Source: Anaerolineae bacterium
GTDB taxonomy: Bacteria > Chloroflexota > Anaerolineae > Aggregatilineales > Phototrophicaceae
Reading direction: 5' to 3'
NCBI GenBank assembly: GCA_022841825.1
Contig: JALHQT010000004.1
Location: 186,001-250,000, forward strand
Length of the DNA stretch: 64,000 nt
Shown: in pieces, positions 1,941 through 19,178 of the stretch
Layout of the letters: each line of letters opens with the position of its first letter
Numbering within the stretch: position 1 is the first letter of the stretch
Translations under genes and position numbers: made by a program
The notes under the pieces: model-generated
The model's database searches: none
Told to the model about the DNA's origin: nothing
Seen by the model: only the letters and a program-made list of their open reading frames with translations

Positions 1941-3479
1941 TTATGGGAACAGACTGGCGACGAGCGACACGCGCTGCGTGAGGTCGGTCGCCAGGAATGG
2001 CAGAATGCCGAGCAGCATGGTGCCCGCGAAGCTGGCGTAGACAGCCCAGTTGAGATAGGGCGTTGCGCCTTCTGCCTTGTCGCCTTCGCCATCACGCAGG
2101 TACATGTTGACGACGACGCGCAGGTAGTAGAAGCCGCTGATGATGCTCGTCAGGACGCCGATGATCGCCAGCGGGATCAAGCCCGCTTCCAGGCTCGACT
2201 GGAAGATCAGGATTTTGCCGATGAAGCCTGCCGTCCCCGGAATCCCGGTCAGACTGAGCATGAAGATTGCCATCATCAGCGCCAGCATCGGGCGCGATTT
2301 GCCCAGCCCGACGAAATCTTCCATCTGTGTGCCGCTGCCATCGTTCTTCTCGACCGCCATCGCAACGGCGAACGCACCCAGGTTGGTGAACATATAGGCG
2401 AGCAGATAGAAGAGTGCCGCCTGTGCCGCGCTGTTGGGCAGCCCGGTGCCGACGCTGACCGTGCCAGTCGCCGCGACCGCCATCATGATGTAGCCGCCAT
2501 GGGCGATGGACGAATAGGCGAGCATACGTTTGATGTTGGTCTGCGAGATGGCGATCAGGTTGCCCAGGATCATCGTCAATGCGGCGATCAGCCACATGAT
2601 CGTCTGCCAGTCGGTACTGCTGGCGGTGGCTGCCGGGGCGAGCGTGGCAAAACCGGTGCCGAAGATACGCAGCATGGCGGCGAAACCACCGACCTTCGCG
2701 CCCACGCTCATGATCGCCGTGACGGGGGTGGGTGCGCCTTCGTAGACATCCGGCGTCCACATATGGAACGGTGCTGCGGCGACTTTGAAGCCAAGCCCGA
2801 CCAGCATCAAGCCCGAACCGAGCAGCAGCAGGAGCTGCGCCGCGCCCGCGTTGGCAGCCTCTCCGCTGAAGAGCGTCGCGCTGACTGCCTGGAGGATGGC
2901 AGGGATGTTGGTCGTCCCAGTCGCGCCGTAGACCAGCGCGGCACCATAGACGAAGAAGGCGCTGGCGAAAGCGCCGAGGATGAAGTACTTGAGACCGCTT
3001 TCTTCCGACTTGAGGTCGGGCGCGCGAAAAGCCGCCAGCACGTAAAGCGGGATGCTGAGGAGTTCGAGCGCGACAAAAACGGTGATCAGGTCATTGGCGG
3101 CGACCATCCACATCGTGCCGACGGTGGCGAAGAGCAGCAGTGAATAGTACTCGCCGCGCTCAATCCCGGTGCGCTTCAGATAATCGACACTCATCAGGAT
3201 GCCGATGAAGGTCGTCGCCAGGATGACCAGGTTGGAGAAGGCGGTGAATTGGTCGGCACGGAACATGCCAAGCATCGCCTCGCCGTCAGTGTTGAACGTG
3301 AAGGCGTTGGCGATGAAGGCGAAGACCACGCCGCCCGCGGCGAGCCAGGCGGTGGTCTCTTTGCGCTCTTTGGGAATCCACAAATCCACCAGCAGCAGGA
3401 TGCACGCCCAAACCGTCAGGCTGAGGGCAGGCAAGGTGTACTGGAGATTGAATTCGCTCAGGCTTGGTACAGGGATCAT
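1941..3479 (-). CDS. nuoN: NADH-quinone oxidoreductase subunit N
   Basis: A 512-residue antiporter-like subunit of the membrane arm of complex I, last gene of the nuo operon. It is hydrophobic throughout, with the expected 14 or so membrane helices. Family motifs include the TM7 region KVAAAPFHMWTPDVYEGAPTPVTAIMSVGAK, shortened here to its core FHMWTPDVYEGAPTPVTA, and NIKRMLAYSSIAHGGY, with the conserved lysine and histidine of the proton path. The length is normal. It starts 10 bases after nuoM, which indicates co-transcription. It is one of three Mrp-like proton-pumping subunits (L, M, N). Confidence 0.97.
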   Translation of the reverse strand: MIPVPSLSEFNLQYTLPALSLTVWACILLLVDLWIPKERKETTAWLAAGGVVFAFIANAFTFNTDGEAMLGMFRADQFTAFSNLVILATTFIGILMSVDYLKRTGIERGEYYSLLLFATVGTMWMVAANDLITVFVALELLSIPLYVLAAFRAPDLKSEESGLKYFILGAFASAFFVYGAALVYGATGTTNIPAILQAVSATLFSGEAANAGAAQLLLLLGSGLMLVGLGFKVAAAPFHMWTPDVYEGAPTPVTAIMSVGAKVGGFAAMLRIFGTGFATLAPAATASSTDWQTIMWLIAALTMILGNLIAISQTNIKRMLAYSSIAHGGYIMMAVAATGTVSVGTGLPNSAAQAALFYLLAYMFTNLGAFAVAMAVEKNDGSGTQMEDFVGLGKSRPMLALMMAIFMLSLTGIPGTAGFIGKILIFQSSLEAGLIPLAIIGVLTSIISGFYYLRVVVNMYLRDGEGDKAEGATPYLNWAVYASFAGTMLLGILPFLATDLTQRVSLVASLFP

Positions 3480-3489
3480 GCTTTGCCCC

Positions 3490-5040
3490 TTAACGTGCCG
3501 CGACGGTCGTTACGAACTGTGTGACCTGCGCCACGATTTGCCCAACCGTCGAGTCCATCGGCGCGAAGAATAACGCCGGGTAGATACCAATGATGAAACA
3601 GCCGACCACGACGGGCACCAGTGCGGCGTATTCCTGCCAGCTCAAGCCGTGCAGGTGCTTGTTCTCTTCCTTGTCCAGCTCGCCCATGAAGACCTTCTGG
3701 AACATGTAGAGCATGTAAACTGCCGCCAGGATGACGCCGAGCGTGGCAAACAGGGCGAAGAAGAAGCCCAGGTATTCGCTGCCGAAGGTGCCCATCAGAA
3801 TGGTGAACTCGCCGACGAACCCGTTCAGACCGGGCAGCCCCATGCTGCTCATGGTCAGCACGAGGCTGATTGCACCGAAGACAGGCAGTGCCTTCCAGAT
3901 GCCGCCGTAAGCATCGAGCGCTTTGGTGTGGCGGCGTTCGTAGAGCATCCCGACGACGAGGAACAAGCCGCCGGTGCTGATGCCGTGATTGACCATTTGC
4001 AGGATGCTGCCCTGGATGCCCTGGCTGTTCAGCGCGAAGATGCCCAGGACGATGAAGCCCATATGCGAGACAGAGGAGTAAGCGACCAGCTTCTTGGCGT
4101 CGGTCTGCGCATACGAGACCCACGCGCCGTAGATGATGCCGATGACCGCCAGCACGCCGATGACGGGTGCCCAGGCGACCGAGGCTTCGGGGAACATCGG
4201 CAGCAGGATGCGGATCATGCCGTAGCCGCCGAGCTTCAGCAATACGCCTGCCAGGATGACCGAGCCAGCCGTCGGCGCTTGAACGTGCGCGTCGGGCAGC
4301 CAGCTATGCAGGGGCCAGAGCGGGACTTTGATCGCCATCGCTATGAAGAAGCCGAGGAAGAGGAACGACTGCGTGCTGAACAAGCCGCTGAACGGGAAGA
4401 CGAGCGCGCCGCTCTGCACCGCCGCGATGATTTCCGGGATGGCGAAGGTTCCCGCCTGATTGCCGACATAGAGGATTGCCAGCAGCATCAGCACCGAACC
4501 CGCCAGGGTATAGAGGAAGAACTTGACTGCCGCATAGACGCGGTTTTCGGAACCCCAGATGCCGATCAGGAAGTACATCGGCACGAGGGTGACCTCGAAG
4601 AAGATGTAGAAGACGATCAGATCCTGGATCATGAACGCGCCGAGCATCGCCCATTCCAGCAGCATCAGGAAGGCGTAGTAGAGCTTTTCGCGCCCACGCT
4701 CTTCGAGGATGTGCGACGCCATGGATGCGAAGATCGCGACGGGCATGATGAAGCCCGTCAGGACGATCATCAGCAGGCTGACGCCATCCACGCCGACGAA
4801 ATAGCTGACGCCGAAGGTGGGCAGCCAATCCCAACGCTGCACCATCTGCAAGCCGGGGTCTGCCGGATTGTAGCTCGCCCACATGACCAGCGTGAGCGCG
4901 AAGATCACCAGGCTGAAGCCGAGCGCGGTGTAGCGGATGTTCCGCCCCTGCGCTTCGGGGATTGCCGCGATGATGGTCATACCGACCAACGGCAAAAAGA
5001 GGATTACCGTCAGCAGCGAAAGTCCGCTTGCTTCCATCAT
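3490..5040 (-). CDS. nuoM: NADH-quinone oxidoreductase subunit M
   Basis: A 516-residue antiporter-like proton-pumping subunit of complex I. GVDGVSLLMIVLTGFIMP, the conserved ILLEWAMLG-type helix (MLLEWAMLGAFMIQD), KVPLWPLHSWLPDAHVQAPT and DAKKLVAYSSVSHMGF are typical NuoM sequences carrying the TM5 glutamate and the central lysines. The length is normal. It lies between nuoL and nuoN in the standard order, with 19 bases to nuoL. Confidence 0.97.
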   Translation of the reverse strand: MMEASGLSLLTVILFLPLVGMTIIAAIPEAQGRNIRYTALGFSLVIFALTLVMWASYNPADPGLQMVQRWDWLPTFGVSYFVGVDGVSLLMIVLTGFIMPVAIFASMASHILEERGREKLYYAFLMLLEWAMLGAFMIQDLIVFYIFFEVTLVPMYFLIGIWGSENRVYAAVKFFLYTLAGSVLMLLAILYVGNQAGTFAIPEIIAAVQSGALVFPFSGLFSTQSFLFLGFFIAMAIKVPLWPLHSWLPDAHVQAPTAGSVILAGVLLKLGGYGMIRILLPMFPEASVAWAPVIGVLAVIGIIYGAWVSYAQTDAKKLVAYSSVSHMGFIVLGIFALNSQGIQGSILQMVNHGISTGGLFLVVGMLYERRHTKALDAYGGIWKALPVFGAISLVLTMSSMGLPGLNGFVGEFTILMGTFGSEYLGFFFALFATLGVILAAVYMLYMFQKVFMGELDKEENKHLHGLSWQEYAALVPVVVGCFIIGIYPALFFAPMDSTVGQIVAQVTQFVTTVAAR

Positions 5041-5059: not shown

Positions 5060-7648
5060 TTAGCCGCCGGTATTGAGCAGCGGCAGCAGTAACACAAGGA
5101 TGACAACGACGACGCCCAGGAGCAGCGACAGAGCATAAACACGCACGTCACCCGCCTGGATGAGCCGCACTTTGCTGCTTAACCAGCGCGTGACACGACC
5201 GATGCCGTTGACGGTGCCGTCGATCACGCCGAGATCAACCGGCTTGCTCAGGATTTCGCCAATGGCGTTGAAGCCATCGCGGATGACCGTATTGTGGAAG
5301 TAGCCGTGCCAGAAGCGCTGGTCGATGGTGTTTGCCAGGAAGCCCGCCATCGCATTGAATGGGCGCTCGAAGGCGCGGTTGTAGAATTCGTCCCAATACA
5401 GGCGCGCGTTTGCCAGCGACCAAATCGGGCTTTCCAGCGGGTCGCGGTTTTCCTCGCCGACCAGCGACTTCTCGCCACCATAGATACGTCTCGCCAGAAA
5501 GATAGCGACGAGGGCGCTGGCAGTTGCCAGCAGCGCGATGCCGAGCTGGAATGCCGGGGCGTGCGAATGGATGACGCTCTGCTGCATCCAGTAGACGAAG
5601 TGGTAGGTGCCGAAGATTTGGTCCAGGAAGAAGAACGGACGCGGAAGCTGCATAAAGCCCGCGAGGATGCTGCCGATAGCGAGCAGCGCGAGCGGGACCG
5701 TCATCAGCCAGACGCTCTCTGGCGCTTTTCGCGCAGCTTCTGTGCGCGGTTTGCCGTGGAAGACGAGTTCGATCTGCCGCCACATATAGAAGGCGGTCAG
5801 GAACGCCGCCGCGAAGAGGACGCCGAAGGCGATGTAGCCATGCAGCGCACCTTCTTCGAGTCCGATCAGCCACGAGTCGGCGAGGATTTCGTCCTTCGAC
5901 CAAAAGCCGCTCAACGGGAAGATCCCCGCCAGCGCCAGCGTGCCGATGAGATAGGTCAGATAGGTGACGGGCATCCGACGCCACAGACCGCCCATGTTGC
6001 GCATGTCCTGCGGGTCGAAGTCGTCATCGTGCGCGTGGTCGTCGGCGTGTGCGTCGTGACCATGTGCGTTCTCGCCATGCACCGGATGCGGGTCGTGGTC
6101 ATCGTGCCCGTGACCGTGTTTCCCGTGCGCGAGGTGATGCCCGTGTTCAACGCCGTGAATGACCGAGCCGCTCCCCAGGAAGAGGAGCGCCTTGAAGAAG
6201 GCGTGGGTGAGCAGGTGGAAGACCGCCGCGCTGTACGCGCCAACGCCGACCGCAGCGACCATGAAGCCGAGCTGCGATACGGTCGAATAGGCGAGGACGC
6301 GCTTGATGTCCCACTGACCGATGGCGACGAAACCTGCCATGATCGCCGTTCCAGCGCCGACCAGCGTGACGACGACCGAGGTGAGTTCCGCTTCGTGGTA
6401 CCAGACGTTGGCGCGCACCATCATGTAGACGCCCGCCGTGACCATCGTCGCCGCATGGATGAGTGCCGACACGGGCGTAGGACCCGCCATCGCGTCCGGC
6501 AGCCAGACGAAGAGCGGGATTTGGGCGGATTTGCCCGCCGCGCCAAGCAGCATGAACAGGGTGATCAGCACAAGCACTGTTTCAAACGGCAGGCTGAAGG
6601 GACCGAAATCGACGATATGTTCACCCTCGTGCAGCAGGCGCTCGGTTTGACCGAAGACGCCGAGCTGTTCGGTGGCGATGTGATCGTTGTTCACATAGAC
6701 GACGGCAGGTTCGCCGTGTCCTTCTTCTTCGCCTTCAGCGGCGGCTTCGCCCTCAGCGTGCGCTTCGCCTTCTGTGGCAGCAGCGCCTTCGGCGTGGCTT
6801 TCGCCTTCAGTCGTCGTGGTGGCTTCGGCAGCCGTTGCGCCCTCGGTGGTCGCGGCGGCTTCGCTGTGTTCGCCTGGGGTGGCTTCACCCTCGGCAGGCG
6901 CTTCGGTCTCGGATTTGTGCTCCTCCTGATAGAGGAGGTATGCCGGTGAACCCACTGGAGCGTATTTGCTGCCTTCTGCGAGTTCTGGGTTGGCGACTTC
7001 GCCAGGGCGATAGTAGTCGAGTGTGCCGAACGTCCAGAAGATCAGGAAGATCGCCATCAGCAGACCAAAGTCGCCGACGCGGTTGACGATGAACGCCTTA
7101 CGCGCCGCGTTGCTGTTGCGCCAGCCGACACCCTTCGCCTTATCGAACCAGAAGCCGATCAGCAGGAACGAGCAGAGACCCACGCCTTCCCAACCCACGA
7201 ACATCATCAGGAAGTTATTCCCGGTGACGAGGATGAGCATGAAAGCGAGGAACATATTCAGATAGGCGAAGAAGCGATGATACTTGGGGTCGCCGTGCAT
7301 GTAGCCAGCGGCGTACATGTGGATGAGCGAGCCGATGCCCGTGACGACGAGCATCATCGTCACACTCAGCGTATCCACGCGCTGCTGCCAGGGGATGACG
7401 ACGCTGTCACCGATCTGTATCCAGCCATCGAGCAGCGGAGGATTGACGACCGCCCCCTGATAATTGCTGTTGACCAGGTACAGGTAAAGCAGGAATGACA
7501 CCACGAACGCCAGCGAGGCGGCAATCGTAGCGATGGCACTGACCCCTTTTTCCGTCAATCGCGCGCCCACAAACAGGTTGATGAACGCGCCAATCGCCGG
7601 AAACAGGATGACCAGGGTGACAAGTTGCGGATAAGTGTCCATATGCAT
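5060..7648 (-). CDS. nuoL: NADH-quinone oxidoreductase subunit L with two low-complexity insertions
   Basis: The large antiporter-like subunit at the distal end of the complex I membrane arm, with the long lateral helix at its C-terminus. The core motifs are present: MFVGWEGVGLCSFLLIGFW, GAAGKSAQIPLFVWLPDAM, GPTPVSALIHAATMVTAG and DIKRVLAYSTVSQLGF. At 862 residues it is about 200 longer than usual. The excess is mainly an Ala/Glu/Gly/Thr-rich stretch at about residues 233-319 and a His/Asp-rich stretch at about residues 499-546, with about 16 His in about 46 residues. A second in-frame ATG two codons in (position 7642) is an equally possible start. The gene is 6 bases from nuoK. Confidence 0.95.
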   Translation of the reverse strand: MHMDTYPQLVTLVILFPAIGAFINLFVGARLTEKGVSAIATIAASLAFVVSFLLYLYLVNSNYQGAVVNPPLLDGWIQIGDSVVIPWQQRVDTLSVTMMLVVTGIGSLIHMYAAGYMHGDPKYHRFFAYLNMFLAFMLILVTGNNFLMMFVGWEGVGLCSFLLIGFWFDKAKGVGWRNSNAARKAFIVNRVGDFGLLMAIFLIFWTFGTLDYYRPGEVANPELAEGSKYAPVGSPAYLLYQEEHKSETEAPAEGEATPGEHSEAAATTEGATAAEATTTTEGESHAEGAAATEGEAHAEGEAAAEGEEEGHGEPAVVYVNNDHIATEQLGVFGQTERLLHEGEHIVDFGPFSLPFETVLVLITLFMLLGAAGKSAQIPLFVWLPDAMAGPTPVSALIHAATMVTAGVYMMVRANVWYHEAELTSVVVTLVGAGTAIMAGFVAIGQWDIKRVLAYSTVSQLGFMVAAVGVGAYSAAVFHLLTHAFFKALLFLGSGSVIHGVEHGHHLAHGKHGHGHDDHDPHPVHGENAHGHDAHADDHAHDDDFDPQDMRNMGGLWRRMPVTYLTYLIGTLALAGIFPLSGFWSKDEILADSWLIGLEEGALHGYIAFGVLFAAAFLTAFYMWRQIELVFHGKPRTEAARKAPESVWLMTVPLALLAIGSILAGFMQLPRPFFFLDQIFGTYHFVYWMQQSVIHSHAPAFQLGIALLATASALVAIFLARRIYGGEKSLVGEENRDPLESPIWSLANARLYWDEFYNRAFERPFNAMAGFLANTIDQRFWHGYFHNTVIRDGFNAIGEILSKPVDLGVIDGTVNGIGRVTRWLSSKVRLIQAGDVRVYALSLLLGVVVVILVLLLPLLNTGG

Positions 7649-7654
7649 GGAGGC

Positions 7655-7954
7655 TTAACCTTCCATCTGGCGCAGATCGTCGATGTTGATGCTGTGTTTG
7701 GTTCGGAAGATGGCGACAATCAGCGCCAGACCGACCGCGACTTCAGCAGCAGCCACCGTGATGATGAAAAAGACAAACAAATGCCCCGCTTCCGACCCCC
7801 ACTGATGGGCGAACGCCACCAGCGCGAGGTTGGTCGCATTGAGCATTAACTCAACCGACATAAAGACCAGGATTGCATTCCGGCGGAACAGCACCCCCAG
7901 CACGCCCATCGTGAACAGGATGACACTCAGCAGAATAAACCATTCGGTTTGCAT
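7655..7954 (-). CDS. nuoK: NADH-quinone oxidoreductase subunit K
   Basis: A 99-residue, three-helix membrane subunit of complex I. FTMGVLGVLFRRNAILVFMS and VELMLNATNLALVAF carry the conserved glutamates of the E-channel (E in SVELMLN and in AAAEVAVGLAL). The length is normal. It lies 29 bases after nuoJ in the standard order and contributes to the central proton path with NuoJ and NuoH. Confidence 0.97.
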   Translation of the reverse strand: MQTEWFILLSVILFTMGVLGVLFRRNAILVFMSVELMLNATNLALVAFAHQWGSEAGHLFVFFIITVAAAEVAVGLALIVAIFRTKHSINIDDLRQMEG

Positions 7955-7983: not shown

Positions 7984-9267
7984 CTAATCGCCAGACGGCT
8001 CGCGCTGGTCGGTTTCGGCGGGAAGCTGCGGCGCATCATCAACGACCTGATGCCCCGTCTGGCTGGCGATGACGTTCGTCAGCGGACGCGCCACACGGCG
8101 GCGCACATTTACGCGCTGCTTGACAGGGGTCACGGCGTGGCGCGTCAGGACGATAGCGCCGACCATCGCCGCCAGCAGCAGCACGGCGAGCAGCTGGAAG
8201 GGCAGCATGTAGGTGGTGAACAACTCAATGCCGATGGCACGCGGACCGCCGAATGACGGACGTGTCATCACGCCGAGCGGATCGACTGAGGCGCGGATGC
8301 TGCCATCGACCTGCCGTTCAGCGAACAGCACGATCAGTTTGGATTGGTCGCGTTCAAGCTCATACGCTTCTTCGCGCGCCAACACGTTGTCGATGCCCGG
8401 ATTTACGCTGGACGAACCTTCGCCTCGCACGAACGCCAGAGCGTAATCACCCTCTATGAGCGTGGTGGTTTCCGATGCCGTGCCATAGGGGATGTTGTTG
8501 GCGTAAGTGGCGGTGTCGTTTTCGTCAAACTCCGAGCCGAAGTTGACCATGCTGATCGAAATATCCGGGTCAAAGGCGTTGAAGACGATGACACGGCTGC
8601 TGCGCGCTTCCTGCACGGTCGAGAGATCTTCGGGAACGACGGTTATGCTGGGTGCATCGCCTGTTCCGTAAGCCACGATGGTCTGCACGCTGCCCGCGGT
8701 GAGACTAATGGGGCTGGTGAGTGTGGCTCCGCCTTCTGGCGTGATGCTCACGGTGTAATCGCCGGGGGCGACCGTCATGAAGTTCGATACTTCGCGCAGG
8801 TTCAGCCCTTCCGCCAGCGGCTGCGAACGGAGCGCGCCGTCGAGCGTCACTGCCACATTGTTGCCAATGTCGGTCGCGGCGTGGACGAAACGTACCTGTG
8901 GGTTGGCGGGCGGTGGCTCGATCAGGTCGATGTTGTTGGTGAGGAGGGGTGTAGCAATCGCGAAGAACATTGCCGATGCCAACGCCGTGCCCAGGACAGG
9001 CACAACGGGGAAGCGCTCGCGCAGGTCGAGCTTATCCGCGCCCAGGAGCATGATGACGAAAATGAACAAGACCATGATCGCGCCCGCGTACACGGTGATC
9101 TGGATCATGGCGAGAAACGGCGCGTTGAGCAGCAAGAATAAGAACGCCAGCGCGCCCATCGTCAGGACGAGACCGAGGGCGCTGTGGACGGCATTCTTGC
9201 TGCTCAGCATGATGATCGCGCCAACCAGCGCGATTGTCGCGCCAAAGCCAAAGAGGACTGTTTCCAT
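7984..9267 (-). CDS. nuoJ: NADH-quinone oxidoreductase subunit J with a DUF4397-like insertion
   Basis: A complex I membrane subunit, 427 residues where NuoJ is normally about 165-200. Residues 1-110 give four helices with the family motif MIQITVYAGAIMVLFIFVIM (the TM3 pi-bulge helix). The last helix and its approach match NuoJ again at about 345-376 (IGIELFTTYMLPFQLLAVLL). Between them, residues 118-340 are a soluble insert. Its two halves (VRFVHAATD... from 125; SRVIVFNAFDPDISIS from about 224) resemble DUF4397 domains, usually extracellular beta-sandwiches. With the known NuoJ topology (N-terminus outside) the insert should lie outside the cell. A polar tail of about 50 residues follows. 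The reading frame is continuous. Confidence 0.93.
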   Translation of the reverse strand: METVLFGFGATIALVGAIIMLSSKNAVHSALGLVLTMGALAFLFLLLNAPFLAMIQITVYAGAIMVLFIFVIMLLGADKLDLRERFPVVPVLGTALASAMFFAIATPLLTNNIDLIEPPPANPQVRFVHAATDIGNNVAVTLDGALRSQPLAEGLNLREVSNFMTVAPGDYTVSITPEGGATLTSPISLTAGSVQTIVAYGTGDAPSITVVPEDLSTVQEARSSRVIVFNAFDPDISISMVNFGSEFDENDTATYANNIPYGTASETTTLIEGDYALAFVRGEGSSSVNPGIDNVLAREEAYELERDQSKLIVLFAERQVDGSIRASVDPLGVMTRPSFGGPRAIGIELFTTYMLPFQLLAVLLLAAMVGAIVLTRHAVTPVKQRVNVRRRVARPLTNVIASQTGHQVVDDAPQLPAETDQREPSGD

Positions 9268-9472: not shown

Positions 9473-9967
9473 TTAATCGGGGTTCGGCATATCCGGGATC
9501 GCTCGGTTGAATACGCCTTCTTCGACCTTTTGCGGCGTCGCGGGCATCCCCGGCGCAGGCGCGTCGATCAGCATGTCTTTCGTGAAGATCGCGTCTCGGC
9601 GGTCGGTGAAGCTCAACTGATGTTCGTGCCCCAGCTCAATCGCCTGCGTGGGGCAGGCATCTTCGCAGTAGCCGCAGAAGATGCAGCGCAGCATGTTGAT
9701 CTCGTAGGTCTTGGCGTAGCGCTCGCCGGGGCTGAAGCGAGTTTCGTCGTTGTTCTCCGCTGCCTCGACCCAGATGGCATCGGCAGGGCAGGCAGCGGCG
9801 CACAGCGAGCAGCCGATGCATTTTTCCAAGCCATTGTCATAGCGGCGCAGGTGATGGCGACCCTTATAACGCTCACGGAAAGGGCGTTCCTGCTCCGGAT
9901 ACTGGATCGTGACCGGTTCTTCGAGAAGATGCTTGAAAGTCGTGGTAAACCCGCGAATGATGTTCAT
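9473..9967 (-). CDS. nuoI: NADH-quinone oxidoreductase subunit I (two 4Fe-4S clusters)
   Basis: A 164-residue ferredoxin-like subunit carrying clusters N6a and N6b, which pass electrons from NuoG towards NuoB. Both CxxCxxCxxxC(P) motifs are intact: CIGCSLCAAACPADAIW and CIFCGYCEDACPTQAIEL. The N-terminal RPFRERYKGRHHLRRYDNG is family-typical. The length is normal. It is 20 bases from nuoH. Confidence 0.97.
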   Translation of the reverse strand: MNIIRGFTTTFKHLLEEPVTIQYPEQERPFRERYKGRHHLRRYDNGLEKCIGCSLCAAACPADAIWVEAAENNDETRFSPGERYAKTYEINMLRCIFCGYCEDACPTQAIELGHEHQLSFTDRRDAIFTKDMLIDAPAPGMPATPQKVEEGVFNRAIPDMPNPD

Positions 9968-9987: not shown

Positions 9988-11547
9988 CTACTCGTTCTTG
10001 CTCACGGTGATGGCAGTGCTGCTGTCGGCTTTCGCCTCTTCTTCGCCCGCTTTATCGGCGGCGGACGCAAGATTATCCAGCCACTTGAGCGAAGCGCTGT
10101 AGAGTGCGAAGGGCACCGCCAGAATTGCCCCGACGACCTGGAGGATCGCCCAGCCCAGCCCCTTGCGTTCGCCCGTCACCATCGGGTCATCTTCAAGCGG
10201 TACCTGCTGGTATTCCTCGCCAGAGTCACGCAGGAACAGGTAGCCACCTGCGACGACCAGCACGAAGATGATGCCAGAGACGACCGCGTAAGCAATGGGC
10301 GAGCCGAACGCATCGCCGACCAGAACCGCGACCGCCGACCAGAACACCGCGAGGATTGCCAGCGGCAGCAGAACCTTCCAGCCGAACGACATCAGGCGGT
10401 CATAGCGCAGGCGGGGAAGGGTGGCGCGTATCCAGATCATGAAGATCAGGAACAGGACGATCTTGCCGATCAGAACGAGCGGTCCCAGGATGGGCAGATT
10501 GTTGACGATGCCGAACCCGTCCTGGTAGCCGCCCAGGAACAGGGTGCTGACGACGACGCTAACGCCGATCATGCCGAGGTACTCCGCCATCATGAAACTG
10601 GCGAACTTCATACCGCTGTACTCGGTCATGTAGCCCTGCGTCAACTCCTGCTCCGCTTCCGGCAGGTCGAAGGGCGAACGATTGATCTCGGCGAGCAGGG
10701 CGATGAACAGGATGCCCGCCGCGAGCGGGTTCTGGAAGATGAACCACTCGTAGATGTAGGTCTGGTCACGAATAATGTCGCCGAGGCTCATGCTGCCGAC
10801 GATCACCACGGGGACAGCCATCGTCAGACCGAGACTGAGTTCGTAGCTCAACATCTGGGCGGAAGCGCGCAGACCGCCGAGCATGGCGTATTTGTTATTG
10901 CTCGCCCAACCCGCCAGAACGACGCCGTAAGTGCCGATACTGGTGACCGCCAGCAGCCACAACACGCCGACATTTGGGTCGGCAAGCCCGAGTGGGACGT
11001 TGTACCAGACTCCATCGAACCAGGGGATATTCAGGTTGGGTCCCAACGGAATGACCGCCAGCAGGATGAGGGCGGGCACGGTCTTGAGGATTGGTGCAAG
11101 CAGATAGACGAAGCGGTCTGCGCCACTCGGCGTGATGTCTTCCTTGAAGATCAGCTTGACGGCGTCCGCCGCAGGCTGAAGGAAACCGCCGGGACCCACG
11201 CGGTTGGGACCCACGCGCTGCTGGAAGAAAGCAATGAACTTGCGTTCCAGCAGCGTCGTGTAGGCGAAGCCCGTGACGATGATCAGGAAGAAGACCAGCG
11301 AGAAGACGATCGAATGGATGACAGGGCAGCCGCGTCCTTCCGGTCCGTAGCACGCCACGACGGCGGCGTCGCCGACGCGCGTGTTCGGCTCGAAGATGAA
11401 GCGGAGCACCGAATCGCCCGCGTTGAAGAGCGCGCCCGCGTTCAGGACGATCAGGATCAATCCCAGGACGAGGACGCCCAGGACAATCAAGACCCAGATC
11501 GGGATTGGGAACCTGCGCCCCTGCTGTTCAGGTACTGTTGTCGCCAT
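9988..11547 (-). CDS. nuoH: NADH-quinone oxidoreductase subunit H with extended C-terminus
   Basis: The membrane subunit forming the quinone-binding chamber and the link to the peripheral arm. Motifs: LLERKFIAFFQQRVGPNRVG, the E/D-rich INRSPFDLPEAEQELTQGYM loop and WIRATLPRLRYDRLMSFGWK. At 519 residues it is about 100-180 longer than most NuoH. The N-terminus is extended by about 30 residues. After the normal last helix there is another helix (VVSGIIFVLVVAGGYLFLRD), a charged linker, one more hydrophobic stretch and a Lys/Glu/Ala-rich tail. The frame is continuous. It is 11 bases from nuoG. Confidence 0.95.
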   Translation of the reverse strand: MATTVPEQQGRRFPIPIWVLIVLGVLVLGLILIVLNAGALFNAGDSVLRFIFEPNTRVGDAAVVACYGPEGRGCPVIHSIVFSLVFFLIIVTGFAYTTLLERKFIAFFQQRVGPNRVGPGGFLQPAADAVKLIFKEDITPSGADRFVYLLAPILKTVPALILLAVIPLGPNLNIPWFDGVWYNVPLGLADPNVGVLWLLAVTSIGTYGVVLAGWASNNKYAMLGGLRASAQMLSYELSLGLTMAVPVVIVGSMSLGDIIRDQTYIYEWFIFQNPLAAGILFIALLAEINRSPFDLPEAEQELTQGYMTEYSGMKFASFMMAEYLGMIGVSVVVSTLFLGGYQDGFGIVNNLPILGPLVLIGKIVLFLIFMIWIRATLPRLRYDRLMSFGWKVLLPLAILAVFWSAVAVLVGDAFGSPIAYAVVSGIIFVLVVAGGYLFLRDSGEEYQQVPLEDDPMVTGERKGLGWAILQVVGAILAVPFALYSASLKWLDNLASAADKAGEEEAKADSSTAITVSKNE

Positions 11548-11558
11548 CGTGTAGCCCT

Positions 11559-14030
11559 CTAGCTCTCTTTGCTAATTTCGACCGCGACCGGCAGCAGTGG
11601 CGCGGCGGTCTCTGCCAGATTGCGCGGGACAATGACCGCCCCCACAGGAGCGATGCCATCGACATGTGCGCGCGCGCGCAGCGGCGCAGCGCCCTTCTGA
11701 CTGACGGTGACGCTGTCGCCCGTCTTGATACCGAGCTGCTTGGCGTCGGTGAAGTTGATTTCGACAAAGGACTCCGGCACGCGCCCACCCATGAACTCTG
11801 CTTCGCTGGGGCGGAAAGCCGCCTCGCGGTTGTAAAGGCGCGTGACGGGGATGGCGACCATGCCGCTCTTCTCCGCCTTTGGCAGGGTGACCTTGCCTGC
11901 ATTGATCGTCCCGCTTTCGGCTGCGGACGCGATTTGAACGCCCAAGCCGCCGGTGTTCTTGTAGGACGTGCCGCCGTAGTAGAGGTCGGTACCGCCGACA
12001 TCCGGGAACTGCTTGCTGACCTTCGACAGCTCGCTGTAGCGGCAGCCCTGCCAGCCTTCGACCTTCTGCGTGATTTCCAGCATGACGGCTGCTGCGGAGG
12101 TCTTCGCCTTCGCCTGACCGAGCTTTTCGCCCAGACGCTGGATGACGACCCAGGCAGGCAGCGATTCTCCAAAGGGTCCCTGGGCAGTATAGAAACGCTG
12201 GACACGGCGTTCGCCGTTGGTGTACGTGCCATCGCGTTCGGCGAAGCTCTGTACGGGCAGGACGACCGCGCTGCGCTGGGCGCTGCGAGTCGCAAACATA
12301 TCGAGGCTGATGATCGTCTCGACTTTGGAGAGCCACTCGGACGCCAGCGGATCATCCGCCATCACATCCGCCTGAGCAAGCAGGAGGACTTTGGGCGGGT
12401 TGGCGATGATGCCCTGCGTCGTTTCCGGGGAGAAGCCCATATAGTGCAGCCCCATACCGTTCGCGCCGGGCAGCGTCGCCATCAAGCCGTTGTTCGCCTT
12501 GCCGACATGTCCGCTTTCGATCAGGAAGTTCGCTGCCGCCTGGGTGAGCGCGCGGCTCCCTTCGAGCGTCAAGCCCTCTGCGCCCACGATGATGATCAGG
12601 TTGGTGGCACCCGCAAGCTGCTTGCCGATGTCCATGCCCGCCAGTTCGCCCATGAACTTCGCGGCTTCGCCGACGCCGTATTGGAGGCATTCGCTGGCGA
12701 AGTGATCCATGCGGGTCGGTCGGGCGTTCGCCGTGACGAGCAGCGCGCCCTTGTCCTTGGCGCGCTTGATGCGATGACGCCAGATCGGCACTTCTTCTTC
12801 CAGGTCGCTGGCGATGATCAAGACGGCATCGCCCTTGCCAAGATCGCCCAGGTTTGTGCCGGTGCCGACGCCCACCTGCGCGATCAAATCCGCGCCCGCG
12901 TGGGTTGGGGGCCATGCGCCCAGGCGTTCGCTGCCGAGACCATTGACAAGCTGCTTGAGCGACCAAAGGTCTTCATTGCTCATCATCGGACCTGCGATGG
13001 CGGCGATGCTGCCGCCCGCAGCCTTCAGTTTGTCGGCGGCGGTCGAAAGCGCGTCGTTCCATGAGGCGCTGCTCAGGCTGTCGCCCTTGCGCAGGTGCGC
13101 GCCTGTCAGACGGTCGGCGCTGCGGGTGAAGTGATGCCCGAAGCGCGCCTTATCGCTGATCCAGATTTCGTTGACGAATTCGTTCTGGCGCGCCATGACA
13201 CGCTTGATGGCAGCTTTGCCACCAAATTCACGTTCCAGGCGGACGCACAGCGTGATGTTCGAGCCTGCTGCATCCCAGGGGTCAATGCTGGGGATATTCG
13301 TCAGTTCCCAGGGGCGTGCGCCAAAGCGGAAGTCGCCCGTCGTGAGCGCGCCGACCGGGCAGATGTCGGTCGTGTTGCCGGAAAAATAGGTGTCGAAGCC
13401 GGGGTCGCTGACGGTGATGATTTGCAGCGTGCGTCCGCGTTCGTGGAATGCCAGCACCGGGTCGCCGACGACTTCATCCTGGTAGCGCACGCAGCGCCCG
13501 CACTGAATGCAGCGCTCTTCGTCAAGATAGATCAGGTCGCCGAGCGGGACATGCTTGTCGAGGTGCAGTTTGTCCTCGAAGTTCATGCGACTGCTGCCAG
13601 GTCCGTGCTCCATCGTCAGGTTCTGGAGCGGGCATTCTCCGCCTTTATCGCAGATCGGGCAGTCGAGTGGGTGGCTGGTCAGGATGAACTCAACCACGTT
13701 CTTACGCGCGTCGGCGACCTGCTGGGTGCCGGTGCGCACCACCAGTCCATCGGACACCGTCGTGGTGCAGGCGGTTTGCAGCTTCGGCATCCAGCGAATC
13801 TTCGCTTTTCCCTGCTCGTCGAGGACGACCTCGCCCGTCGCGCGGTCTTTCTCGATGTTGCCCATCTCGACCAGGCACATGCGGCACATGCCGACCGGCG
13901 ACATCTTGGGGTGATAACAGAAGACCGGGATGTCATTCCCGGCGTAAAATTTTGCGACGTCTACCAGATTTGATCCGGCGGGGACTTCGTATTCTTTGTC
14001 GTCGATATAGATTTTGACCATCTTGGGCAT
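11559..14030 (-). CDS. nuoG: NADH-quinone oxidoreductase subunit G
   Basis: An 823-residue peripheral-arm subunit carrying iron-sulfur clusters on the way from NuoF to NuoI. The N-terminal 2Fe-2S domain holds FCYHPKMSPVGMCRMC. The HxxxCxxCxxxxxC ligands of N5 follow (HPLDCPICDKGGECPLQ), then a 4Fe-4S set in CIQCGRCVRYQDEVVG with TTDICPVGALT. From about residue 230 the protein continues as the molybdopterin-oxidoreductase-like fold typical of NuoG, with a C-terminal beta domain. Translation starts MPKMVKIYIDDKEYEV. The length is within the family range. Confidence 0.96.
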   Translation of the reverse strand: MPKMVKIYIDDKEYEVPAGSNLVDVAKFYAGNDIPVFCYHPKMSPVGMCRMCLVEMGNIEKDRATGEVVLDEQGKAKIRWMPKLQTACTTTVSDGLVVRTGTQQVADARKNVVEFILTSHPLDCPICDKGGECPLQNLTMEHGPGSSRMNFEDKLHLDKHVPLGDLIYLDEERCIQCGRCVRYQDEVVGDPVLAFHERGRTLQIITVSDPGFDTYFSGNTTDICPVGALTTGDFRFGARPWELTNIPSIDPWDAAGSNITLCVRLEREFGGKAAIKRVMARQNEFVNEIWISDKARFGHHFTRSADRLTGAHLRKGDSLSSASWNDALSTAADKLKAAGGSIAAIAGPMMSNEDLWSLKQLVNGLGSERLGAWPPTHAGADLIAQVGVGTGTNLGDLGKGDAVLIIASDLEEEVPIWRHRIKRAKDKGALLVTANARPTRMDHFASECLQYGVGEAAKFMGELAGMDIGKQLAGATNLIIIVGAEGLTLEGSRALTQAAANFLIESGHVGKANNGLMATLPGANGMGLHYMGFSPETTQGIIANPPKVLLLAQADVMADDPLASEWLSKVETIISLDMFATRSAQRSAVVLPVQSFAERDGTYTNGERRVQRFYTAQGPFGESLPAWVVIQRLGEKLGQAKAKTSAAAVMLEITQKVEGWQGCRYSELSKVSKQFPDVGGTDLYYGGTSYKNTGGLGVQIASAAESGTINAGKVTLPKAEKSGMVAIPVTRLYNREAAFRPSEAEFMGGRVPESFVEINFTDAKQLGIKTGDSVTVSQKGAAPLRARAHVDGIAPVGAVIVPRNLAETAAPLLPVAVEISKES

Positions 14031-14132: not shown

Positions 14133-14161
14133 GTAGGAGCGAACCCGTGTCTCGCCCCTAC
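14133..14161. repeat. GTAGGGGCG-family repeat, imperfect (copy 4)
   Basis: It begins GTAGGAGCG and ends CGCCCCTAC, between nuoG and the small gene at 14158-14553, whose 3' end it touches. One arm differs at one base, so the palindrome is imperfect. Confidence 0.65.
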
Positions 14162-14561: not shown

Positions 14562-15893
14562 TTAGTCGCCCGACGGTTCAGGCGCAGCGGCACCGCGTCT
14601 TGCGCCGCCGCCACGGGTGGCGACCGCCGCGGGCGCAGCACCGATGTGCTTCTTGAAATCATCCGGGAAGTTCTTGATGGTATGAATGATCGGGTTGGCG
14701 GCGAAATCGCCGAGCGCACAGAGCGTGACGCCCTGCATGTTCTTGGCGACATTGTTGATGAGGTCGATGTCCGATTCCTGTGCGCCACCCGCCATGATGC
14801 GGTCGAGGACTTTGTCGAGCCAGTACGTCCCCTCGCGGCACGGCGTGCATTTGCCGCAGCTCTCGTGTTTGAAGAACTTCGTGACCTTCGCCGCGACCCA
14901 GGTGATGTCAGTGTCTTCATCCATGATGATGATCGACGCCGAGCCAAGGATCGTACCGACCTTTTGCATCGCCTCGTAGGAAAGCGGCGAGTCGAGGACT
15001 TCATCGGTCGCCGGGATGATGGGACCCGAACCGCCGGAGGGCAGGATCGCCTTGACTTTCTTCCCGCCGGGAACGCCGCCGCCGTACTGCTCGTCGAAGA
15101 TGAGCTGGCGCAGGGTGATCGCGCCCATGACCGCTTCGTAGTTGCCCGGCTTGTTGACGTGCCCGCTCAGGCAGTAGAGCTTGGTGCCGGTGCTCTGCTC
15201 GGTGCCCATCGCTTTGAAGGCGGCAGCGCCTTCGCGCAGGATGAATGGGGCGTTTGCCAGCGTCTCGACATTGTTGACGACCGTCGGTTCGGCGTACAGA
15301 CCGCCGCCTTTTTGAGCGGGGAAGGGCGGGCGAACGCGCGGCTGCCCCAATTTGCCTTCCAGGCTTTCCAGCAGGGCGCTTTCTTCACCGCAGATGTATG
15401 CGCCCGCCCCCAGGTGGGTGTACATCGGGCAGCTCCAGCCGCTGCCCAGGACGTTGTTGCCGACGAAGCCCGCTTTTTCGGCGTCCGCGATGCGCTTGTC
15501 GAGGTCATGGGCGATGTCCCAGTACTCGCCGCGCAGGTAGATGTAAACCGCCGTCGCCTGGATCGCCCAGGCGGCGATCATCGCGCCTTCGATGAGCTGA
15601 TGCGGGTTGTTTTCCATGATCTGACGATCTTTGAAGGTGCCCGTTTCGCTCTCATCGGCGTTGACCACGACGTACTTCTTCGGTTCAGACGCAGGGATGA
15701 AGCTCCATTTGACGCCTGTCGGGAAGCCCGCGCCGCCGCGCCCACGCAAGTTCGCTGCCTTCACTTCGTCGACGACCTCTGTGGGTTTCATCGAGACGGC
15801 TTTTTTCAGCCCGTCATAGCCGCCATTCTTGACATAGACATCGAATTCGCGGATGTTCGGGATGTCTTTTTCACGGAAGATGACGTTGACCAT
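14562..15893 (-). CDS. nuoF: NADH-quinone oxidoreductase subunit F (NADH/FMN binding)
   Basis: A 443-residue subunit that oxidises NADH with FMN and holds cluster N3. The motifs are intact: RGRGGAGFPTGVKW (FMN/NADH glycine-rich loop), VVNADESETGTFKDR, YICGEESALLESLEGK, and the N3 ligands SCGKCTPCREGTYW with a later cysteine in LCALGDFAAN. A short Ala/Arg-rich tail after about residue 420 is not part of the core. It lies 52 bases after nuoE, with a repeat in the gap. Confidence 0.97.
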   Translation of the reverse strand: MVNVIFREKDIPNIREFDVYVKNGGYDGLKKAVSMKPTEVVDEVKAANLRGRGGAGFPTGVKWSFIPASEPKKYVVVNADESETGTFKDRQIMENNPHQLIEGAMIAAWAIQATAVYIYLRGEYWDIAHDLDKRIADAEKAGFVGNNVLGSGWSCPMYTHLGAGAYICGEESALLESLEGKLGQPRVRPPFPAQKGGGLYAEPTVVNNVETLANAPFILREGAAAFKAMGTEQSTGTKLYCLSGHVNKPGNYEAVMGAITLRQLIFDEQYGGGVPGGKKVKAILPSGGSGPIIPATDEVLDSPLSYEAMQKVGTILGSASIIIMDEDTDITWVAAKVTKFFKHESCGKCTPCREGTYWLDKVLDRIMAGGAQESDIDLINNVAKNMQGVTLCALGDFAANPIIHTIKNFPDDFKKHIGAAPAAVATRGGGARRGAAAPEPSGD

Positions 15894-15945: not shown

Positions 15946-16425
15946 CTATGACTTCTCGGCGCGCCATTTGGCGATCAGGTCGCGCATCTTATCCATGTCC
16001 AGGTTTTCGTGGAAATGGAAGTTGCACTGGAGCATCGGCGCGCGGTCGCACGCGCCCAGGCACATGACATGCTCGACGGTGAACATGCCGTCGTCGGTCG
16101 TATCATGGTCGTGATCGAGTTTCAACTCGTGCAGCACGTCTTCGTAGAACTGATCCGCACCGCGCAGCGCGCAGGCGAGATCGGTGCAGATGTGCAGCCA
16201 ATGCTTGCCCTTCGGTCGCTCACGATACATGGTATAGAAGCCGGCGATGGACTTCACCTGGGTTGGATCGAGTTCGCACAGCGCAGCGACCTCTTCGATC
16301 CCTTCCAGGTTCACATAGCCATATTCTTCCTGAGCGATGTAGAGCAGGGGCATGACTGCCGACCGCTTCGTCGGATATTTCGCAAAGACTTTCTCAATAC
16401 GCTCGGCGTACTTCTCAGCCAGCAT
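15946..16425 (-). CDS. nuoE: NADH-quinone oxidoreductase subunit E
   Basis: A 159-residue thioredoxin-fold subunit with the 2Fe-2S cluster N1a, the partner of NuoF. Ligand motifs are CTDLACALRGAD (C-x4-C) and CLGACDRAP (C-x3-C). The helical N-terminus (YPTKRSAVMPLLYIAQEEYG) is typical. The length is normal, and it is 17 bases from nuoD. Confidence 0.97.
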   Translation of the reverse strand: MLAEKYAERIEKVFAKYPTKRSAVMPLLYIAQEEYGYVNLEGIEEVAALCELDPTQVKSIAGFYTMYRERPKGKHWLHICTDLACALRGADQFYEDVLHELKLDHDHDTTDDGMFTVEHVMCLGACDRAPMLQCNFHFHENLDMDKMRDLIAKWRAEKS

Positions 16426-16442: not shown

Positions 16443-17711
16443 TTAGCGGTCGCTATCGCCCAGCACACAGTCGATGCTGCCGACAATCGCCACCAGGTCC
16501 GCGATCATATGTCCCTGCGACATCTTGCCCAGAGCGCTGATGTGCATGAACGAAGGTGTCTTAAAGCGCACACGGCGCGGCTTGGGTCCGCCTGTGCCGT
16601 GCAGGTAACAGCCGATTTCGCCGCGCGGGCTTTCAATCGCCATGTACACCTCTTCGTCTGGAAGCGAGAAACCCTCCGTCCACAGCTTGAAGTGGTGGAT
16701 GACCGCTTCCATGCTGCGACCCAGTTCGGCGCGCGGCGGCGGGACGAACTTGCGGTTGTCCGAGCGGAAGCTGCCCTTGGCAGCGCCCAGTCGCTTGATC
16801 GCCTGTTTGAGGATGCGGGTGCTCTCGCGCATTTCATGCATACGAATGATGTAGCGGTCGTAGACATCGCCATGCTCGCCCAGGGGGACGTTGAATTCGT
16901 AGTTCTCATAGCTCATGTACGGCTCTGCCTTGCGAATGTCCCAGTTGATGCCGCTGGCGCGCAGACAGGGACCGGTCAGACCCCAGGCGAGGGCATCTTC
17001 CGGCTCGACAACACCGATGCCCTGGGTGCGATCTCTCCAGATCGGGTTGTTGGTCAGCAGCAGCTCGTATTCATCGACCTTCTGCGGGAAGTAGCCGAGG
17101 AACTTTTCCAGCGCAGGCAGGAAATCGGGCGGCAGGTCGCGCCAGACACCGCCAGGGCGCATGTAACTGGTCATCATGCGCTGCCCACTCAGCATCTCGA
17201 ACATGTCGAGGATGACTTCGCGCTCGCGGAAGGCGTAAAGGAACACGCTCATCGCGCCCAGGTCGAGGGCGTGTGTGCCAAGCCAGACGAGATGGCTGTT
17301 CAGACGGGTCAGTTCGAGGCAGATGATGCGGATGACCTGCGCGCGCTCTGGGACATCGATCCCGCCGAGTTTTTCGACCGCCATGCAGAAGACGGCGTTG
17401 TTGGACATCGGCGCGAGATAATCCATGCGGTCGGTGAGCGTGACACCCTTTTCGTACTGCTTGGCTTCGATGTTCTTCTCAATGCCGGTGTGCAGGAAGC
17501 CAACATCGGGCAGGCAGGTGACGATTTCCTCGCCATCCAGCTCCAGCAGCAGACGAAGCACGCCGTGTGTGCTGGGATGATGCGGTCCCAGGTTGAGCAG
17601 CATCGTTTCGCCCGTAATGGCGCGGTCGGAGACCAAGCCACGCAGCGCGTCGAGATCGCCCTGCCACTCTGCCATGCCGTCGGCGGACGGGCGCGACAAT
17701 TCCATTACCAT
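16443..17711 (-). CDS. nuoD: NADH-quinone oxidoreductase subunit D
   Basis: A 422-residue (49-kDa-type) subunit that forms the quinone pocket with NuoB. Motifs: NLGPHHPSTHGVLRLLLELD (loop with the conserved quinone-contacting His), GIEKNIEAKQYEKGVTLTDR, RPGGVWRDLP, ESPRGEIGCYLHGTG and a C-terminal VGSIDCVLGDSDR. The catalytic-site residues expected of NuoD look intact. An extra N-terminal stretch of about 25 residues precedes the usual start. It lies 18 bases after nuoC. Confidence 0.97.
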   Translation of the reverse strand: MVMELSRPSADGMAEWQGDLDALRGLVSDRAITGETMLLNLGPHHPSTHGVLRLLLELDGEEIVTCLPDVGFLHTGIEKNIEAKQYEKGVTLTDRMDYLAPMSNNAVFCMAVEKLGGIDVPERAQVIRIICLELTRLNSHLVWLGTHALDLGAMSVFLYAFREREVILDMFEMLSGQRMMTSYMRPGGVWRDLPPDFLPALEKFLGYFPQKVDEYELLLTNNPIWRDRTQGIGVVEPEDALAWGLTGPCLRASGINWDIRKAEPYMSYENYEFNVPLGEHGDVYDRYIIRMHEMRESTRILKQAIKRLGAAKGSFRSDNRKFVPPPRAELGRSMEAVIHHFKLWTEGFSLPDEEVYMAIESPRGEIGCYLHGTGGPKPRRVRFKTPSFMHISALGKMSQGHMIADLVAIVGSIDCVLGDSDR

Positions 17712-17729: not shown

Positions 17730-18269
17730 TTACTCTTTGGCAAAAGGCTTGTGCTTGGCGATGTCCTCAACATTGAAGGAGAACATCACGGTTTCGTAAC
17801 CGAGCGGGTAGTCGCGGCGGTGCGGGTGTCCGTTCCAGTCTTCGGGCATGAGGACACGGCGCAGGTCGGGGTGCCCGTCGAAGGTGATGCCCATCATGTC
17901 AAAGGCTTCACGTTCGAGCCAGTTCGCCCCGGGGAAGACCTCGGTGACGGTCGGCACAGTCGGGTCATCTTCAAAAAGATAGACCTTGACGCGCAGACGG
18001 CGGTTGTAAAGCATCGAATAGAGGTGATAACTGACGCCGAAGCGCTGTCCGTCATAGCGCGTCTCCGGGTAGTAATCCACCGGGCTGATGTCCGAGAGGA
18101 AGTTGTACACCAGCCCCTGGGTATCGCGCAGGGTGTGCAGCACCGCCTGAATCCGCAAGGGTTCGACGACGATGGTGGTCTCGTCACGGAAGGTTTTTAC
18201 GTCAAGCACCGCATCACCCAGCAGGCTTTTGAGCGCGCTGGCGGGGTCGAGAGCTTTGGGGATATTCAT
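17730..18269 (-). CDS. nuoC: NADH-quinone oxidoreductase subunit C
   Basis: A 179-residue (30-kDa-type) peripheral-arm subunit bridging NuoD and NuoB. The signature ANWLEREAFDMMGITFDGHP followed by DLRRVLMPEDWNGHPHRRDY is exact for the family. I chose the ATG giving MNIPKALDPA because it follows GGATAGG; an ATG four codons upstream (18281) is also possible. It is separate from nuoD, not fused. Confidence 0.96.
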   Translation of the reverse strand: MNIPKALDPASALKSLLGDAVLDVKTFRDETTIVVEPLRIQAVLHTLRDTQGLVYNFLSDISPVDYYPETRYDGQRFGVSYHLYSMLYNRRLRVKVYLFEDDPTVPTVTEVFPGANWLEREAFDMMGITFDGHPDLRRVLMPEDWNGHPHRRDYPLGYETVMFSFNVEDIAKHKPFAKE

Positions 18270-18321
18270 GTGCCTATCCATTCATGTGCGGAACCACGCG
18301 CAGATGTCCGCGTTCTACAGG

Positions 18322-18825
18322 TTATGCCTTCTGGGTGAATTCCATCCAGTCGGTAATGCGTTCGCCCTTGATCTTCTCGTGCAGCGTCATGATGCCGTGA
18401 ATGAGCTGTTCCGGGCGGGGCGGGCAGCCCGCAACATAGACATCCACCGGGATGATCTCATCGACACCCTGGACGATTGCGTAATTGTTGTAGACGCCAC
18501 CACACGAAGCGCAGTCGCCCATCGAAACGACGTACTTGGGTGAAGCCATTTGATCGTAGAGCTGGCGCAGCACAGGTGCCATCTTGCGAGTGACACGCCC
18601 TGCCACGATGATCAGATCGCTCTGACGCGGACTGGCGCGGTTCAGTTCCATGCCAAAACGCGACATATCATAATTCGATGCCTGGGTGCTCATCATTTCG
18701 ATGGCACAGCATGCCAGTCCAAACAGAAGGGGCCACATCGCTCCGGTGCGACCCCAGTTGACTGCTGTTTCGAGCGTGGTCGTAACCACGCCGAGGTTGC
18801 CGAGCTTAGACGATACTACTCCCAT
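18322..18825 (-). CDS. nuoB: NADH-quinone oxidoreductase subunit B (cluster N2)
   Basis: A 167-residue subunit holding the terminal 4Fe-4S cluster N2, next to the quinone site. Ligands: the tandem cysteines in [26 protein letters not shown] and [13 protein letters not shown] chose the ATG with GGAG at 7 bases ([10 protein letters not shown]). A GTG at 18846 would lengthen it by 7 residues without a ribosome binding site. The start overlaps the end of nuoA by 10 bases, so the two are translationally coupled. Confidence 0.96.
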
Positions 18826-19178
18826 TCCAGCGCTCCAACCTTCCACTCGTAAATCAATCCGATTGTCAACACTCCAACGAAGATCAGCATAGCGATCAGG
18901 GCGTACAGTCCCATATCCCGGAATACAACCGCCCAGGGCAGAAAGAAGACGACTTCGATATCGAACAGGATGAAAAGAACGGCGATCAGGTAAAAGCGCA
19001 CCGAGTAACGACGGTTCGCGGGACCTATCGGCTTCATGCCGCTTTCGTAGGGAGCGGTCTTACGGGATGTGGGGCGGAACGGTCCAAACAGGAAAGACAG
19101 CACCGAAATCAGGATGGCGACCAAGACCGATATAGCGATCAAAGCGCCAATCGGCGCGAATTCACTTAATGCATTCAT
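18816..19178 (-). CDS. nuoA: NADH-quinone oxidoreductase subunit A
   Basis: A 120-residue, three-helix membrane subunit and first gene of the operon. [20 protein letters not shown] contains the TM1-2 loop with the conserved ESG, where some NuoA carry a cysteine in the loop. [20 protein letters not shown] carries the conserved acidic residues of TM2. The length is normal. A promoter-like sequence and an inverted repeat lie upstream. Confidence 0.97.

Follow-up and report, generated by a model that had tools for sequence, protein, structure and literature searches.

NuoJ of complex I with a DUF4397-like insert between its fourth and fifth membrane helices in five families of a Chloroflexota order

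The 64,000-nucleotide stretch of DNA analysed here (the window) encodes a complex I subunit NuoJ that carries an insert of about 220 residues between its fourth and fifth membrane helices, and the same insert recurs in five families of the order to which the window belongs. The nuoJ gene (7984..9267, minus strand, as are all the features below) is a single open frame that starts with ATG and encodes 427 residues, in keeping with the coordinates and length given in the earlier note on this DNA. Residues 1–112 (8932..9267) form TM1–TM4, including the conserved TM3 stretch VYAGAIMVLFxFVIML, and were recognized from predicted helices, invariant columns and a match to the Pfam family Oxidored_q3 (PF00499; 128.7 bits against a cut-off of 33.2). 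The insert (residues 118–338, 8254..8916), which extends from TM4 to the FGGP motif before TM5, was delimited by alignment and predicted structure; it consists of a first DUF4397 beta-sandwich (residues 124–217, 8617..8898) and a second, DUF4397-like one (residues 222–335, 8263..8604). It is followed by the FGGP motif and TM5 (residues 339–378, 8134..8253) and by a C-terminal tail (residues 379–427, 7987..8133) that is Arg-rich at its start and modelled with low confidence.

The gene lies between nuoI and nuoK, an arrangement similar to that of most relatives, in a 14-gene nuo operon with the order A-B-C-D-E-F-G-H-I-J-K-L-M-N, which runs from position 19178 down to 1941. Eight of its genes were identified by models above their cut-offs: nuoB (18322..18846; TIGR01957), nuoC (17730..18281; TIGR01961), nuoD (16443..17711; TIGR01962), nuoE (15946..16425; TIGR01958), nuoF (14562..15893; NF010120), nuoG (11559..14030; TIGR01973), nuoM (3490..5040; TIGR01972, 586.5 bits) and nuoN (1941..3479; TIGR01770, 440.8 bits). 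Pfam families identified nuoH (9988..11547; PF00146), nuoK (7655..7954; PF00420) and nuoL (5060..7648; PF00361 and PF00662), the last encoding 862 residues with long acidic and His-rich loops, and nuoI (9473..9967) was assigned on visual inspection, through its two CxxCxxCxxxCP motifs. Finally, nuoA (18816..19178) matched NuoA models with a best E-value of 5e-31, below their equivalog cut-offs. The window NuoJ likewise missed the NCBIfam NuoJ equivalog cut-offs (best score 116 bits against 192); since NuoA from the same operon also misses NCBIfam cut-offs, we read these models as lineage-specific and the miss as non-defining. A promoter and terminator scan across nuoJ gave nothing clearly above shuffled sequences. 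Note that a small ORF of 131 residues (14158–14553, same strand) is located in the operon between nuoF and nuoG; its sequence, inspected by eye, suggests a helical, TPR-like repeat.

The additional residues lie where the earlier note had put them: about 220 residues separate TM4 (residues 88–109) from the TM5 region. The insertion looks clean because its flanks align on either side: in ten insert-free NuoJ proteins, the columns of window residues 110–345 hold 24–40 residues, and two landmarks align with the window protein, a short stretch behind TM4 that often contains Pro and a motif of the (F/Y/H)G type ahead of TM5, except in L060 and L062, two of the ten that are diverged and align poorly at the insert columns. 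Canonical NuoJ/Nqo10/ND6 (8e9g_J, 3rko_J and 4he8_J) share the five-helix core, the TM3 motif VYxGAIMVLFxFVIM and the TM5 motif, but the solved chain 6 subunits that were matched are 162–252 residues long, against 427 here, and in five alignments to solved chain 6 the profile splits into TM1–4 and TM5, with the insert unmatched.

The Pfam profile of DUF4397 (PF14344) matches residues 124–231 of the window NuoJ well above its cut-off (60 bits, E 4.2e-16, against 30.6 bits), as the DUF4397 likeness noticed earlier would lead one to expect, and it matches with an E-value of at most 0.01 in all 41 carriers compared (the window and 40 chosen relatives). Scanned alone, the second half of the window insert gives a weak match (13.3 bits, E 0.12). 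The corresponding halves of nine relatives were scanned in the same way: six matched (E 3e-4 to 2.6e-7, the best being L036), one of them above the cut-off (31.6 bits) and five with 21.8–26.2 bits, and the other three gave no DUF4397 match.

AlphaFold2 models were obtained for the whole protein (33-row alignment; mean pLDDT 80.5, pTM 0.70) and for the insert alone (residues 117–340, 15 rows; pLDDT 89.3, pTM 0.87). Helices are predicted at residues 2–22, 26–46, 50–74 and 88–109 (TM4), and then at 342–351 and 354–378 (the TM5 region), i.e. five membrane helices with the conserved TM3, whose columns 59–73 are invariant. Between TM4 and the TM5 region, strands at residues 124–213 and 223–334 build two tandem beta-sandwiches, predicted with confidence: by blocks of ten residues, the pLDDT of the insert is 82–97, except for 281–290 (64) and 331–340 (70). 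That of the membrane part is 61–89, and that of the tail is 51–53 from residue 381 onward. The earlier claim of two DUF4397-like halves thus stands for the fold, both halves being predicted sandwiches, whereas by sequence the second half of the window protein reaches E 0.12 only.

Relatives carry the insert at the same position in 85 of 101 sampled genomes of the order, as read by eye from the match rows. The carriers belong to families f1 (that of the window, 57/61), f3 (8/8), f4 (5/5), f7 (7/8) and f8 (8/8), with G080, G082 and G100 counted among them though contig ends cut the gene; families f2 (0/8), f5 (0/1) and f6 (0/2) are insert-free. The five misses inside the carrier clade are G015, G020, G024, G031 and G072. 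In three of these genomes (G020, G024 and G031) a close NuoG is missing as well (best E 6.8e-13), the NuoG of G015 is cut at a contig end, and nuoG-H-I gives way to other genes in G072. Short NuoJ frames only (174–181 residues, above the Pfam cut-off) were found in G015, where the frame sits in a diverged cluster, G024 and G072, and no NuoJ over the Pfam cut-off in G020 and G031. The nuoJ genes extracted from relatives contain no internal stops, and one of them (L049, from G041) encodes 482 residues with the insert. Four loci of family f7 (L037, L039, L044 and L045) showed no nuoH or nuoI beside nuoJ-K-L.

In a survey across Chloroflexota, the insert proved confined to the window's order among the matches listed. 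A class-wide sample of 396 genomes, 24 of which gave no match at all, yielded 35 with a full-length match, all from this order among the matches listed; 37 genomes of the order had a listed match, the two insert-free ones being G020 and G061, and the best listed E-value outside the order was 3.0e-48, against 2.3e-105 for the weakest carrier. In a phylum-wide sample, two of 301 genomes had the insert, both from the window's family, the other 299 lying outside the order (again among the matches listed). These absences cover the DUF4397-type insert; unrelated NuoJ inserts would escape notice. Among named public genomes, the insert is present in 14 of the best 80 loci and absent from 66 (121–277 residues; L101 is cut). 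The records of the 14 carriers bear the names Anaerolineae, Anaerolineaceae, Chloroflexi or Chloroflexota, with titles that point to many isolates, and some of these assemblies are also among the 101 genomes of the order. Apparently, the cultured relative Phototrophicus methaneseepsis ZRK33 also carries the insert; its genome is a single contig (excerpt of PMC8941918) and its proteome is deposited as PXD023380 (excerpt of PMC11005417).

An artefact (a frameshift, a chimeric assembly or two joined genes) would explain the odd length of NuoJ and nothing else, and we reject it as extremely improbable, since the same architecture occurs in the same place across the 85 genomes of the order and the 14 public records (assemblies partly shared), apparently also in the single-contig genome of the cultured strain, and since G048, flagged for an in-frame TGA, has at this locus an uninterrupted frame of 413 codons ending in TGA. 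The single ORF with both families therefore encodes one fused protein, as had been proposed.

A tree of NuoH, NuoI, NuoK, NuoM and NuoN explains the distribution of the insert by one change: its 25 carriers form one group (SH-aLRT 100), adjoined by f5 and f6 and then by f2, all insert-free. This tree was built from 45 chosen rows by a quick method with SH-aLRT as the only support value and NuoJ left out; five rows are less than half filled, and the outgroup is not confined to one side of a branch (L093 and L095 lie on the other). One change alone cannot separate gain from loss, but the outgroups are insert-free, which makes a gain far more likely than a loss, and the insert was apparently acquired once and then retained.

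A ready-made module was at hand, as free ORFs with two DUF4397 domains exist in other Chloroflexota genomes (L201 and L202, of 223 and 244 residues). These proteins resemble the insert in being tandem pairs of similar size with an Arg starting each half, and differ from NuoJ in being free and having signal-peptide-like N-termini; moreover, a PDAP motif found in L201, L202 and L203 occurs in none of the 41 NuoJ inserts. The window's genome itself has five other ORFs with DUF4397, and these start with stretches that look by eye like signal peptides or lipoprotein signals. On contig C4 of this genome, a secreted-looking protein (L197, 5773–7002) comprises an N-terminal part that is fasciclin-like by eye, followed by two DUF4397 domains.

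Conservation was compared along NuoJ as mean pairwise identity over the 41 carriers. It is 0.70 for residues 1–80 (TM1–3), 0.32 for the TM3–4 loop with TM4, 0.29 and 0.25 for the first and second halves of the insert, 0.59 for TM5 with its motif and 0.31 for the tail; as the TM3–4 loop with TM4 and the tail are also low, low identity is not peculiar to the insert. The length of the TM4–TM5 loop (columns of residues 113–338) ranges from 209 to 295 residues in carriers, and all 41 inserts are acidic, with net charges of -6 to -41. The insert residues kept in at least 90% of the sequences are one Arg starting each half and one Gly, which by eye are present in the secreted DUF4397 proteins too. 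Over 24 close pairs, dN/dS was 0–0.17 for residues 3–112, 0.07–0.48 for the first half and 0.05–0.25 for the second, values to be read with the facts that the pairs overlap and share genomes, that dS exceeds 1 in many and that two region values, including one for the second half, were uncomputable. Judged from these substitution rates, the insert is under purifying selection and constrained less strongly than the core. A single conserved site for docking fits this low conservation less well than does a structural role or an interface that changes fast.

As to the side of the membrane, the insert is most likely outside, as the earlier note had supposed; this prediction relies on the topology of E. 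coli NuoJ and of mitochondrial ND6 with NDUFA1, and on compatible charges. Excerpts of PMC8357420 describe residues 142 and 145 of E. coli NuoJ as a potential link to the surface on the periplasmic side, and name a cytoplasmic half for its TMH3. In mitochondria, the TMH4–5 loop of ND6 is shown with NDUFA1, whose intermembrane-space part contacts ND6 (excerpts of PMC8762328). The counts of Lys plus Arg and of Asp plus Glu in the window NuoJ are 1 and 0 in loop 1–2, 0 and 0 in loop 2–3, 3 and 3 in loop 3–4, 12 and 31 in the insert region, and 7 and 6 in the tail, the first part of which is Arg-rich; this pattern is compatible with an outside insert, without proving it.

Among solved structures, PepT peptide transporters were ranked first by Foldseek and VIA-align 2, by virtue of their extracellular domain. 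Superposition of 5a9h on the whole NuoJ model gave a Z-score of 17.2 (rmsd 2.7 Å over 181 aligned residues, 12% identity), and that of the PepT extracellular domain on the model of the insert alone gave 16.8; the best Foldseek E-values to PepT were 4.0e-11 for the whole model and 4.0e-9 for the insert. The PepT domain is described as two tandem Ig-like folds between TM9 and TM10 (excerpt of PMC4597091), so that PepT1 and PepT2 (5a9h, 5a9i and 5a9d) also have a double beta-sandwich in an outside loop between membrane helices; unlike NuoJ, the host is a peptide transporter. The insert profile matched PepT1 weakly (E 0.18), and the full NuoJ profile matched PepT2 with an E-value of 4.4e-5 over profile positions 69–244, which start in the membrane part. 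Sequence support for common ancestry being weak, we treated the likeness as one of shared architecture. DUF4397 and the PepT extracellular domain, together with the beta-sandwich domain of HGSNAT and AlgF, look alike when predicted models are compared by structure.

Complex I has a membrane core of high conservation, and what is added to the enzyme usually comes as separate chains. NuoJ with its insert is part of this known enzyme. We tentatively propose that a tandem pair of DUF4397 domains, presumably donated by a protein of the secreted type, entered the TM4–TM5 loop of NuoJ once, in a common ancestor of the five families, and that NuoJ from the main complex I locus has retained it since in the genomes sampled. 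The module would fold as two beta-sandwiches between TM4 and TM5, probably outside the membrane, and may serve as a built-in accessory domain, a cap or clamp outside the junction of NuoH, the NuoA/J/K bundle and NuoN, which would stabilise assembly or shield that outer surface, in the way that separate accessory subunits, NDUFA1, NDUFA13 and NDUFS5 among them, may act around mitochondrial ND6; neither electron transfer nor proton pumping would have to change. Taken as a whole, from the single gain to the clamp, this proposal is plausible, if somewhat short of probable. It is favoured by the presence of both families in one ORF, the single change on the tree, the retention at the main locus, the purifying selection and the two confidently predicted sandwiches.

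Published work on the ND6 region bears on a clamp in both directions. ND6 TMH4 meets ND5 TMH16, ND4L TMH1 and ND2 TMH6 in E. coli and T. thermophilus as well as in Y. lipolytica; in mammals, NDUFA1 and its neighbours link two modules of the assembly at this place, and residues H40–S46 of NDUFA1, the region nearest ND6, decide cross-species complementation (all in excerpts of PMC8762328). Against a clamp, the position of ND6 TMH4 is called remarkably variable and suggested to be functionally unimportant (excerpt of PMC9977279); TM4 is poorly conserved here too, the low identity of both insert halves and the spread of loop lengths would be unusual for a tight clamp, the sister families do without the insert, and the acidity of the inserts could simply mean solubility. 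Lineage-specific additions that are said to be stabilising are known in complex I, such as the 94-residue insertion loop of E. coli NuoG, which is said to stabilise the peripheral arm, and supernumerary subunits (excerpts of PMC8357420 and PMC8762328), but the former belongs to the peripheral arm and the latter are separate chains, whereas the NuoJ pair lies inside a core membrane subunit.

Alternatively, the insert could be a docking platform that binds an outside partner, such as a c-type cytochrome or a second respiratory complex, or else the S-layer or cell wall. Its likely position outside the membrane and the signal-peptide-like or lipoprotein-like starts of the other DUF4397 ORFs of the genome would suit such a role, as would the closest solved fold, the PepT double domain being reported to bind trypsin (excerpt of PMC4597091), by way of a di-aspartate motif. 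We consider this rather unlikely, however, because no conserved surface was found in the insert: the columns kept in at least 90% of sequences amount to one Arg per half and a fold-typical Gly.

An ornament, i.e. a mobile domain that entered a loop able to tolerate it and has stayed there, without benefit, as its clean removal is hard, would account for the fast divergence and variable length of the insert; the loop also varies in NuoJ proteins without it, as seen above in the ten insert-free sequences, and the PepT insert is said to affect transport minimally (excerpt of PMC4597091). Yet the five families show no loss, the insert being present in all main-locus NuoJ proteins found in the clade, and both halves have dN/dS values well under 1, though perhaps as a constraint for folding alone, and we regard this reading, too, as rather unlikely. 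A more specific variant of the docking reading, itself distinctly unlikely, is that the insert would tether complex I externally to a partner such as a supercomplex component or the cell envelope, in convergence with animal PepT; if so, bacteria and animals would have independently recruited partners by setting a double beta-sandwich of one kind into the outer loop of a proton-coupled membrane machine.

A folded module of 220 residues, acquired a single time and kept in NuoJ across five families, would mean that the outer face by the E-channel accepts a large domain. The proposed accessory domain could be approached by comparison with the insert-free sister families, which offer a natural reference for the role of that face, and a cultured carrier would allow purification and structure work. 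We found no description of a DUF4397 insert in NuoJ in open-licence PMC literature; as the sequences sit in public genomes, architecture pages of databases may already display this combination of domains.

Two other features of complex I were observed in this genome. NuoL has a loop of 142 residues between residues 212 and 355 (loop A, 22% Asp plus Glu) and a His-rich loop at residues 500–548 (loop B). Many members of the order have a long loop A, but a tie between the long NuoL loops and the NuoJ insert was rejected: loop A has 26 residues in carriers L032 and L036, and 63 and 72 in the f6 non-carriers L057 and L058, and loop B occurs in carriers and in many non-carriers. A second nuo cluster lies on contig C10 (L196, 7780–17823), a stretch in which BLAST found no NuoF, NuoG or NuoI; it has the order A-H-J-K-L followed by three antiporter-type subunits, and its NuoJ is insert-free.
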